Positions 52,870 to 56,846 of a DNA stretch of 64,000 nt are shown here, in pieces. How positions within the stretch are numbered: position 1 is the first letter of the stretch; each line of letters begins with the position of its first letter. The notes below the pieces were generated by a model. That model was given only the letters and a program-made list of their open reading frames with translations, was not told the origin of the DNA and did no database searches. The DNA is from Hyalangium gracile (GTDB taxonomy: Bacteria; Myxococcota; Myxococcia; Myxococcales; Myxococcaceae). The stretch is from NCBI RefSeq assembly GCF_020103725.1, contig NZ_JAHXBG010000026.1:1-64000 (forward strand), in the 5' to 3' direction. Position numbers and translations under genes: made by a program.

Positions 52870-53562
52870 TCAGCGGCGGCGGTGCGCCAGGGCGGCCTGC
52901 ACGAGCCCGCGCAGCCGTTGCCGGTCCGTCTCCCCCAGGCCGAGCCGCTCGAACTCCTCCTCCAGGGCTTCGCGCTTCAGCTGTCCGTCCACGCAGGCGT
53001 TGAGCCACATCGCGACGGTGGAGTCCGCGAACTCCCGCCCGTTGTAGGCGCTGAACTCGCGCATCACCTCCGCGTACCTGCGCAGGTAGTACTTCTGGTG
53101 GTAGTCCTCGGCCCGGTAGAAGGTGGCCAGGGGGAGGATGGGGGTGAGCATGGGGCCGCTCCTGCCCGCCATCGCCTGTCGAGCCGTCTCCAGCGCCAGC
53201 CGCTTCTGCTCCGCGCTCTCGTAGAACACCGCGGACATGTACTGGCGGCTGTAGGGGCGCTCGGTGGGATCGGCCTCCTTCCAGAAGTGCCTCAGCAGCG
53301 CCTCGTAGGAGATGCGCGTCGGCTCGTAGTCGATCTGGAATGACTCCGTGTGGTCGCCGAGCTGGCGGTACGTTGGATCCGGCTGACTTCCGCCGGTGTA
53401 GCCCACGCGCGTCCGGATGACTCCAGGTAGACGCCCGAACCGGGCGTCAGGGCCCCAGAATCAACCCAGCGCGAAGGTGGCCGTCTCCACGCGGGTGGGG
53501 GCCAGTGCGTCCACCGGCAGCAGCCGGGCGGAAGGAGCTTCGACGGTCGTGGCGGGCTTCAT
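52870..53562 (-). CDS. msrA: Peptide methionine (S)-sulfoxide reductase, probable selenoprotein
   Basis: The frame runs from ATG 53562 (GGAGG seven bases upstream) to 52870, with one in-frame TGA at 53463-53461, codon 34. Reading this TGA as selenocysteine gives TFALG-U-FWGPDARFG, with U in place of the catalytic Cys of the MsrA motif GCFWG. The frame continues intact on both sides: LPGVIRTRVGYTGG, then DHTESFQIDYEP, FYESAEQKRLA, and FYRAEDYHQKYYLRRY. Total length is 230 residues. Cys190 in WLNACVDG is the only other Cys and could resolve the selenenic acid. A hairpin of SECIS type follows the TGA. It repairs oxidised methionine in the cytoplasm. An annotation that starts at 53406 would miss the active site. 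A mutant pseudogene is the alternative. Confidence 0.85.
53430..53448 (-). promoter_or_regulatory. Candidate bacterial SECIS element within msrA
   Basis: On the coding (minus) strand an 8-bp perfect stem, GACGCCCG / CGGGCGTC, encloses the loop GTT. Counted from the TGA, the stem begins after 12 bases and the loop G comes about 20 bases downstream. This meets the usual bacterial SECIS rules of a small apical loop with G in its first two positions, 16-37 bases after UGA. The stem is GC-rich like the whole gene, so some such hairpins could arise by chance. Confidence 0.7.
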
Positions 53563-53729
53563 GGCGGTTCCTCCATCTCCCTCTACGGGAGAACCCATTT
53601 CCAGGTTACGTCTCTTCCCTGCGGGCCGGGACTGCTCGACACTCCCTGCGGCAAGTGGCCTCCCGGCCGATATGGCAAGTGTCACGAAGTGGCAGAGTGC
53701 GGAACTCCCCCCCCACCCCGAGGAAGTGA

Positions 53730-55445
53730 ATGGCTCGAACGCACCTGATGAACGTCGTTGTACGCGCTCTGCGCACCGCTCGGCGGGCTGCCGCCGCGGG
53801 CCTGCCTGTCACCGAGTATGCCGCGCGGCAGCGCGGGCGCGCGATGCTCGGACGGCGTGCGCTCCTCCAGTTCACGGCGGGTGCGGCGGGTGCGGCGGTG
53901 CTCTCGGCCTGTGGGGGAGAGGAGGACTCGCAGAGCGTGGCCATCGTCGGGGGTGGCATGGCCGGGTTGCACTGCGCGTATCGGCTGAAGCAACTCGGTG
54001 TCACGGCGCGCGTCTACGAGGCCGCGACTCGCACCGGTGGAAGGATGTTCACGGAGCGCAGCCTCTTCCCCGAGGGCCAGAACTGCGAGCTCGGCGGCGA
54101 GTTCATCGACACCGGTCACCTGACGATGCACGACCTGGCGCGGGAGCTGGGCATCGAGCTGCTCGACTACACCCAGGATGATCAGAGCCTGTCCCGGCTG
54201 CGGGTCTCCTTGGACGGGCGGGTGCTCACCGAGGAGGAGATCCTCCGGGGCTTCGCGCCCATCGCGGAGCAGATCGACGTGGCGCTCCAGGCGCTGGAGG
54301 ATCCCGAGGAGTACATCACCTACCAGACGCCCAATGGGGCCCAGGCGCTGGATCAGCTCTCGCTCTCGGCCTGGATGGATCAGGCAGGCATCGCGGCGAG
54401 CGACCCGGTGCGTCGGCTCATCGAGCTGGCCTACGTGGGCGAGTTCGGGCTCGAGGCGAACGAGTGCAACTGCCTCAACCTGCTGACCTTCATCTCCACG
54501 GACACCACGCGGCTCGAGCTGTTCGGCGAGTCCGACGAGCGCTTCCACGCCAAGGGTGGAAATGATCTCTTCACGCAGCGGCTGGCCGAGCGCCTGGAGC
54601 CGGGACAGATCCAGCTCGAGCACCGGCTGCTGAAGCTGGACGAGCTGTCCGACCAGCGCTACCGGCTGACGTTCGACACGCCGGAGGGCACCCGGGAGGT
54701 GAAGGCGGACCACGTGGTGCTGGCCCTGCCGTTCACCCTGCTGAGGCAGATCCCCATCGGGGTGTCGCTGCCCGAGGTGAAGCGCAAGGCCATCCAGGAG
54801 CTGGGGTACGGCACCAACGCGAAGCTGATGGTGGGCTTCTCCTCGCGGCCGTGGCGCGCCGAGCCGTACCGCTCGGATGGGAGCACGTACTCGGACGTGG
54901 GCTACCAGCAGACGTGGGAGACCAGTCGCCTGCAGCCAGGCACCGCGGGCATCCTCACGCAGTACGTCGGTGGGCAGAAGGGCCTGGCCATCGGCCAGGG
55001 CACGCCCGAGCAGCAGGCCGCCCTCTTCCTCGACGCCTTCGATCGCGTCATCCCCGGCGCGAAGGCCGCGGCCAACGGGCGGGTGGCGCGCATGCACTGG
55101 CCGAGCTACCCGCTGACCCTGGGCAGCTACTCCGCGTACAAGGTGGGGCAGTTCACGACGATCGCGGGCGCGGAGATCGAGCGGGTGGGCAACCTGCACT
55201 TCTGCGGCGAGCACACCAGCCTGGACGCGCAGGGCTTCATGGAAGGCGCCGCCCTCACCGGCGCCATGGCGGCGGACGAGGTGGCGGGGGATCTCGGCCT
55301 CGTTCAGGAGGAGCGGCTGGGACCGGGCGCGCGGATCCTGGCGCGGGCCCGCGCGGCCCGAGTCCATGGCCGCTGGGTGGACGCTCTGCGAGGGGCGCGG
55401 CGCGGGAGAGGGGCGGTTGTCGGAGCAGGGGGGCGCGTGCGATAG
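53730..55445 (+). CDS. Tat-exported flavin amine oxidase
   Basis: The 571-residue protein starts after GAGGAAG. A 38-residue lead precedes the twin-arginine motif GRRALLQF and a hydrophobic stretch ending in LSACGG, so it is probably a Tat-exported lipoprotein, folded with FAD before export. The FAD-binding GGGMAGLHCAYRLKQLG and the following EAATRTGGRMFTER match monoamine oxidase/polyamine oxidase enzymes, as does the C-terminal GNLHFCGEHTSLDAQGFMEGA. It should oxidise an amine with hydrogen peroxide release. The substrate is unknown. The P450 gene follows 63 bases later. A basic disordered tail of about 40 residues ends the protein. Confidence 0.9.
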   Translation: MARTHLMNVVVRALRTARRAAAAGLPVTEYAARQRGRAMLGRRALLQFTAGAAGAAVLSACGGEEDSQSVAIVGGGMAGLHCAYRLKQLGVTARVYEAATRTGGRMFTERSLFPEGQNCELGGEFIDTGHLTMHDLARELGIELLDYTQDDQSLSRLRVSLDGRVLTEEEILRGFAPIAEQIDVALQALEDPEEYITYQTPNGAQALDQLSLSAWMDQAGIAASDPVRRLIELAYVGEFGLEANECNCLNLLTFISTDTTRLELFGESDERFHAKGGNDLFTQRLAERLEPGQIQLEHRLLKLDELSDQRYRLTFDTPEGTREVKADHVVLALPFTLLRQIPIGVSLPEVKRKAIQELGYGTNAKLMVGFSSRPWRAEPYRSDGSTYSDVGYQQTWETSRLQPGTAGILTQYVGGQKGLAIGQGTPEQQAALFLDAFDRVIPGAKAAANGRVARMHWPSYPLTLGSYSAYKVGQFTTIAGAEIERVGNLHFCGEHTSLDAQGFMEGAALTGAMAADEVAGDLGLVQEERLGPGARILARARAARVHGRWVDALRGARRGRGAVVGAGGRVR

Positions 55446-55508
55446 TGCGGCGAGCCATGGCGGCGAAGTGCCTCGCGCTGCAGACATGGACTCCATGGAG
55501 GTCTCAAC

Positions 55509-56846
55509 ATGTCCTTGACGCTCCGGGGGCCGCGGTTGCCCCTGCTGCCGACGTTGCGCGTCATCGTGAATCCCATCGGCGTGTACCAGGAGTGGTCGGC
55601 TCGCTATGGCGATCCGTTCCTCGCGAAGCTGCCGTCAGGGCTGCTCGCCATCACTGGGAACCCGGAGGGCATCAAGGAGTTCTTCACCGCCGACCCCAAC
55701 ATCTTCGTCCCCAACACCCATACGTTGATCGAGCCCCTGCTGGGGACCTACTCGCTGCTGCTACTCGCCGGGGAGCGTCACAAGCGTGAGCGCCAGCTGC
55801 TCATCCCCACCTTCCACGGTGAGCGGATGCGCTCCTACGGCAAGCTGATGCAGGAGATCACCCACCGGGCCATGGAGGGCGTGCGGCCCGGGGACCAGGT
55901 GCTGGGGCTGCACCTCACGCAGAACATCTCCATGGAGATCATCATCCGTGCGGTGTTCGGCGTCGAGGAGGCGGAGCGGGTGCGGAGCTTCGTCGTGGCG
56001 ATCTCGGACCTGACGACCTCCTATGGCCCCGTGCTGGCCATGTGGAAGTCGACGCGGCGGTCCTTTGCCGGTCTCGGGCCCTGGGATCGCTTCCAGGAGC
56101 GGCTGGCGAGCTTCAACGTCATGTTGATGGATCAGATTCAGCGTCGGCGCGCCTCCAACGCGCCGGGAGAGGACATCCTCTCGCTGCTGCTCTCCGTCCG
56201 GGACGAGGACGGCCAGCCCATGACGGACGAGCAGATCAAGGACGAGCTGCGCACCTTCCTGCTCGCCGGGCACGAGACCTCGGCCATCACCATGGCGTGG
56301 GTGCTGCAGTGGCTCCACCTCTACCCCGAGGTCCGGGAGAAGCTGGCGCAGGAGCTGGCGCCGCTCGGCTCCCAGCCTGAGGCGGAGAAGCTGGCCAGGC
56401 TGCCCTACCTGTCCGCGGTGGTGGACGAGACGCTGCGGATGTGTCCGGTGTTCCCGCTGACGCCGCGCAGGCTCATCGCGCCCTTCACCCTGCTGGGCCA
56501 CCAGCTGCCCCCGGGAATGGGGGTGGCGGCCGCCATCACCCTGGTGCACAACAACCCGACGCTCTATCCCGAGCCCCAGCGCTTCCGGCCGGAGCGCTTC
56601 CTGGAGCGCAAGTACTCGCCCTTCGAGTTCATCCCCTTCGGAGGCGGGGCGCGGCGCTGCATCGGCATGGCCTTCGCGAACTACGAGATCAAGATCGTGG
56701 TGGGCACGCTGATGGCGGCCTATCGCTTCTCGCTGGAGAACCCGCGGCCGGCGAAGGTCGTCCGTCGCAACCTGACGCTGGGGCCGAACACTCCCATCCC
56801 GATGCGTTACGAGGGAGAGGCGCGCAACGTCGCGGCCGCCGCCTGA
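55509..56846 (+). CDS. Cytochrome P450
   Basis: The product has 445 residues, with GGAGG before ATG 55509. The I-helix motif LLAGHETSAITMAW, the K-helix ETLRMCP and the heme loop FGGGARRCIGMAF with ligand Cys384 are all present. There is no N-terminal membrane anchor, so it is a soluble class I-type P450 needing a ferredoxin partner, which is not encoded nearby. Similar myxobacterial enzymes hydroxylate fatty acids, sterols or secondary metabolites. The substrate is not deducible. Confidence 0.95.
   Translation: MSLTLRGPRLPLLPTLRVIVNPIGVYQEWSARYGDPFLAKLPSGLLAITGNPEGIKEFFTADPNIFVPNTHTLIEPLLGTYSLLLLAGERHKRERQLLIPTFHGERMRSYGKLMQEITHRAMEGVRPGDQVLGLHLTQNISMEIIIRAVFGVEEAERVRSFVVAISDLTTSYGPVLAMWKSTRRSFAGLGPWDRFQERLASFNVMLMDQIQRRRASNAPGEDILSLLLSVRDEDGQPMTDEQIKDELRTFLLAGHETSAITMAWVLQWLHLYPEVREKLAQELAPLGSQPEAEKLARLPYLSAVVDETLRMCPVFPLTPRRLIAPFTLLGHQLPPGMGVAAAITLVHNNPTLYPEPQRFRPERFLERKYSPFEFIPFGGGARRCIGMAFANYEIKIVVGTLMAAYRFSLENPRPAKVVRRNLTLGPNTPIPMRYEGEARNVAAAA

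Follow-up and report, generated by a model that had tools for sequence, protein, structure and literature searches.

The minus-strand locus at 52870..53562 of the window, meaning the whole 64,000-nucleotide stretch of Hyalangium gracile DNA that was analysed, is almost certainly a selenoprotein gene of the MsrA family (methionine sulfoxide reductase A, which repairs proteins), in which UGA would be decoded as selenocysteine 34 (Sec34) to yield an enzyme resembling the MsrA of Clostridium (Alkaliphilus) oremlandii (CoMsrA). The reading frame, the Sec machinery of the genome, a SECIS element with covariation, conservation of the TGA, purifying selection and homology were all observed. Judged from sequence, the TGA at codon 34 is a selenocysteine codon and not a lesion, and the Sec insertion predicted in an earlier note on this DNA is supported by the Sec machinery, the TGA in relatives and the covarying SECIS. 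The features of the locus are as follows, with the evidence for each in brackets.

52870..53562, minus strand: msrA selenoprotein gene (read-through translation, PF01625, CoMsrA match, dN/dS)
53463-53461, minus strand: in-frame TGA, codon 34 (Sec), in place of the catalytic Cys of GCFWG (read-through translation)
53568..53578, minus strand: Shine-Dalgarno-like sequence, GGAGG in gatGGAGGaaccgccATG (position upstream of the ATG)
53430..53448, minus strand: apical SECIS hairpin, GACGCCC-GGUUC-GGGCGUC (fold, covariation, bSECIS constraints)
53418..53463, minus strand: whole predicted SECIS region, with a lower stem UGAUUCUGGG / CCUGGAGUCA starting at the UGA itself (minimum free energy, MFE)
52873..53076, minus strand: C-terminal helical domain, residues ~163-230 (hmmsearch, AlphaFold helices, Foldseek)

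The frame runs from an ATG at 53562 to 52870 and comprises 230 codons, corresponding to 230 residues when Sec34 is counted. Its sole internal stop is the TGA at codon 34, found in the context FALG-TGA-FWGPDARFG and thus exactly at the catalytic Cys of GCFWG, as the earlier note had seen. The good start signal described there was likewise found, with GGAGG upstream of the ATG, and the element bearing it is kept at this place in close orthologues. PF01625 matched the read-through protein over residues 27-162 (136.3 bits against a cut-off of 23.7, E = 1.3e-39). The catalytic motifs are G-U34-FWG and H71-T-E73, the latter with the catalytic Glu, and U/C34, F35, W36, H71 and E73 were invariant across 32 aligned sequences. 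The longest table-11 ORF at the locus, 52870..53406, encodes 178 aa from a GTG start and is devoid of the active site, including neither the catalytic residue nor the first strand; standard gene calling therefore loses the active site because the call starts at GTG 53406, the truncation that had been anticipated. Among the four closest genes, dN/dS was 0.29-0.34 after the TGA in 6/6 comparisons and 0.2-0.8 in the 33 codons before it, with a median of about 0.3. By this measure, both sides of the TGA are under purifying selection. A flavin amine oxidase gene (window 53730-56846, plus strand), followed by a cytochrome P450 gene, lies divergent from msrA, and a flavin amine oxidase gene adjoins msrA in three loci (L022, L023 and L026).

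The apical hairpin has an upper stem of 7 bp and a loop, GGUUC, that starts 19 nt after the UGA. The 46-nt fold from the UGA has an MFE of -27.3 kcal/mol (z = -4.1), with 0/200 shuffles as stable. Published bSECIS constraints comprise a loop of 3-9 nt, an upper stem of 4-16 bp, a spacing of 16-37 nt, an MFE <= -7.5 kcal/mol, G in the first two loop positions, and the loop pattern N1-G-[G/U]-N-N2, with N1 pairing with N2 (PMC13188914); the msrA hairpin agrees with all of them, loop pattern included. Across the family, the 26-nt hairpin had an MFE <= -7.5 in 82/85 TGA-bearing sequences. In 84 distinct sequences, 92.4% of the cells of the five-pair core stem (18-22/28-32) were paired, and 55 cells were changed on both sides of the stem versus 26 in shuffles, a control that ignores relatedness; sliding the partners by one column, a control that retains relatedness, still gave far lower pairing, at 52-58%. 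The compensatory pairs G-C/U-A and C-G/U-A were both seen in this set, with pair 19-31 being G-C in 33 and U-A in 32 sequences, and pair 23-27 G-C in 53 and A-U in 15. Sequences that break pair 19-31 still yield a shifted or bulged hairpin.

The third base of Asp39, a synonymous position, tracks its RNA partner (39 C-G, 17 T-A, 9 T-G and 1 C-A; Fisher p = 2e-8, kinship not corrected for). Gly43 is GGG in 83/85 sequences and the codon of residue 40 is nearly always GCC or TCC, both as needed by the SECIS stem. Four or five of the five core pairs were formed in 77/85 Sec forms, compared with an average of 1.5 in ordinary Cys MsrAs and with 1 and 2 in the two family members that carry TGT; across the Cys MsrAs and these two Cys revertants, the range was 0-2 of 5. 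By this comparison, the SECIS is absent from the ordinary Cys MsrAs and from both revertants. We consider it fairly probable that residues 40 and 44 (Ala with Arg, Gln or Leu, or Ser with Ser) are set mainly by SECIS pairing rather than by the protein, and that Sec-to-Cys reversion lifts this constraint; the two residues may also be coupled at the protein level. The lower stem, though strong in the msrA sequence, showed no covariation in the family and was dropped as a conserved part of the SECIS, so that only the apical part counts as comparative evidence. Depletion of synonymous changes over the SECIS codons among four close orthologues had the expected direction and was non-significant (10/13 versus 68/115 codons, Fisher p = 0.25). 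An Rfam scan of the window gave no matches above the gathering score, which has no bearing either way on the SECIS.

Relatives were collected from 84,980 species genomes with a query without the TGA codon, and the best 80 of a larger set of relatives, which are not a census, were analysed along with the Myxococcota sequences. Codon 34 is TGA in 7/7 full-length Myxococcota sequences, namely the window gene and six others with identities to it of 77-83% (the three closest), 67%, 48% and 47%. Among the best 80 of the larger set, it is TGA in 78 and TGT in 2, both from Atribacteria; the combined family set, to which these 80 belong, thus has TGA in 85/87 and TGT in 2/87. Because the TGA recurs in 7/7 Myxococcota and in 78/80 of the relatives listed, its position at codon 34 is not chance. 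TGC/TGT in relatives, named in the earlier note as something that would refute Sec insertion, did not appear, TGA being found instead, apart from the TGT of the two Atribacteria sequences, which have lost the SECIS. The best 80 relatives belong to Nitrospirota, Desulfobacterota, Bacillota, Chloroflexota, Planctomycetota, Actinomycetota, Acidobacteriota and other phyla. Within the class, a full-length relative at E <= 1e-40 was found in 6/147 genomes, meaning that members of the group can do without it.

In the phylogeny, the Sec family and the ordinary myxobacterial Cys MsrAs form separate clades (support 100/99), and the window gene clusters with five other Myxococcaceae-type sequences (98/86). 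The copy from genome G014 (L027) groups with a planctomycete sequence (L103, Planctomycetota; 98/90) and not with the other Myxococcaceae, and its placement in the tree makes a separate acquisition possible. The two TGT forms, on Atribacteria contigs L077 and L088, are nested within the Sec family, on a branch that has support; because of this nesting, they are best read as probable Sec-to-Cys reversions in which the SECIS pairing was lost. Taken with the tree, the patchy presence suggests gains and losses of Sec-MsrA, possibly by transfer. Viral contigs gave only short and distant MsrA matches.

The genome of H. gracile (G000; 11.7 Mb, reported 100% complete) contains selA, selB, selC and selD, the machinery that the earlier note had proposed as a check. 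The selC gene scored 71.6 bits and was called by ARAGORN as tRNA-SeC(tca), selA matched with 577 bits and selD with 377 bits, and selB carries SelB-wing_2 and SelB-wing_3 domains. SelB wing domains bind SECIS elements in other bacteria. The Sec trait is common among the relatives as well, most of which have a tRNA-Sec (65-83 bits). In the selD gene (L017:1474-2430; G000 C7:46327-47256), the N-terminal segment likewise contains a TGA in frame (HCAG-U-AAKL), making the selD product a candidate selenoprotein. A hairpin of 6 bp with the loop GGUCU, suggestive at most, is found ~30 nt downstream of that TGA, and the 59-nt and 49-nt selD folds were not better, or weakly better, than shuffles. No FdhA selenoprotein formate dehydrogenase, looked for as a second marker, was found above the cut-off in the same genome, the weaker matches being without internal TGA. 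The three glutaredoxin matches of the genome are of the Cys type and have no internal stop; a Sec-glutaredoxin as in C. oremlandii was not found among them.

If the TGA were a sequencing error or a nonsense mutation, the gene would be a decaying Cys-MsrA pseudogene, the loss of which would be tolerated given the two other, ordinary Cys MsrA genes in the genome. This is extremely improbable in view of the same TGA in the independently sequenced Myxococcota and relatives, the dN/dS of about 0.3 downstream of it and the covarying SECIS. A table-11 ORF from GTG 53406 does exist, and the product might be this 178-aa form, or the UGA might be a stop with a regulatory role that another tRNA rarely reads through. 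We give these proposals hardly any credence, as codons 1-33 are conserved in frame, together with the ribosome-binding site, the short form would start too late to include the first strand or the catalytic residue, and the SECIS and the Sec machinery supply a specific mechanism. Reassignment of UGA in an alternative code was ruled out, since msrA itself also terminates with TGA (52872-52870) and UGA is therefore not generally reassigned in the genome.

The closest known system to the selenoprotein MsrA proposed here is CoMsrA (PDB 4lwj/4lwk/4lwl/4lwm/4u66), one of the known Sec-MsrAs that bear out the earlier statement that Sec can replace the catalytic Cys in this family. The two proteins are about 41% identical and have in common the catalytic Sec in GUFWGPDA, the shortened loop xYxxLGDHxE, the catalytic Glu and a helical C-terminal domain that is missing in ordinary MsrAs. 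Dimer-hole residues Y47, E55, R88 and Q89 of CoMsrA correspond to Y65, E73, R106 and Q107. A six-orthologue profile was aligned by hmmsearch with CoMsrA; the match begins at strand 1 and takes in the complete helical domain, up to profile position 222 (E = 1e-62). The AlphaFold model (pLDDT 89.7) contains helices over residues 164-229; its best PDB matches were all CoMsrA (TMt 0.90-0.92, compared with 0.4-0.8 for other MsrAs), with a Foldseek TM of 0.91 to 4lwj over 202 columns. Unlike CoMsrA, the H. gracile protein has ~18 more N-terminal residues, a myxobacterial host, glutaredoxins without Sec in its genome and a single Cys, Cys190, with no counterpart in CoMsrA. The two ordinary Cys MsrAs of the genome (C2 and C10) share the PF01625 fold and the catalytic residues, with 42-48% identity over residues ~16-162, but differ in having an active-site Cys, no matching SECIS pairing and no helical-domain match.

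The C. oremlandii enzyme has 20-fold higher activity in its Sec form than in its Cys form and is reduced by glutaredoxin but not by thioredoxin; it passes through a transient dimer linked via the catalytic residue, and it needs the helical domain to form its active site (PMC4479559). Since the fold and the dimer-hole residues are kept, we infer the same chemistry, and by analogy the reductant and the dimerisation, for H. gracile MsrA. SelB, loaded with Sec-tRNA(Sec), would bind the SECIS hairpin that closely follows the UGA, and the UGA would be decoded as Sec34 to produce the 230-residue enzyme. Sec34 would then attack methionine-S-sulfoxide, methionine would leave, and the resulting selenenic acid would, as for CoMsrA, be reduced either by glutaredoxin/glutathione or by way of a Sec-Sec dimer. 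These routes of reduction are the most likely in view of the lack of a conserved resolving cysteine: no Cys is conserved family-wide and 44/87 members are without any, yet H. gracile MsrA has Cys190. On the CoMsrA model, the most likely mode of action is that of a 1-Sec MsrA, with regeneration through glutaredoxin or the resolution of a dimer.

Cys190 is the only Cys of the protein besides the catalytic position and is kept in four/four members of the closest subclade. In the profile alignment, its counterpart in CoMsrA lies at about residue 174, a distance of three residues from Gly177, in whose region the helical domains are near the backside of the active-site hole. In this subclade, Sec34 might thus be resolved intramolecularly by Cys190 in a two-residue Sec/Cys enzyme instead of by glutaredoxin or a dimer. 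We regard this as rather unlikely, given that position 190 is Cys in 5/87 family members and Tyr or Phe in most, the next orthologue (L026) having Tyr. In about 16/87 family members, a short insertion near the C-terminal end contributes an additional Cys (found in 16/18 of those with a residue at that position), possibly a resolving cysteine of another subclade.

Sec-MsrA was already known in the Deltaproteobacteria, in Syntrophobacter (PMC1794560), and in marine metagenomes of the GOS set (PMC2398784), and it is also catalogued in a table (PMC13188914); these catalogued proteins and that of H. gracile alike have a GUFWG/H motif, a bSECIS and a Sec-decoding host. No report of Sec-MsrA in Myxococcaceae or other myxobacteria was found in the open-access literature searched, which is not proof of novelty. 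Myxococcaceae are aerobic soil predators. The present locus adds Sec-MsrA, an enzyme kind already known, to this family through a gene that is invisible to standard gene calling. The 85 TGA-bearing sequences from many phyla make a strong comparative case for the SECIS, with both synonymous and amino-acid-changing compensatory substitutions, and document Cys reversion with loss of the SECIS within the Sec-MsrA family. Specialists will find here not a surprise but a useful addition to a selenoprotein family that is already known.
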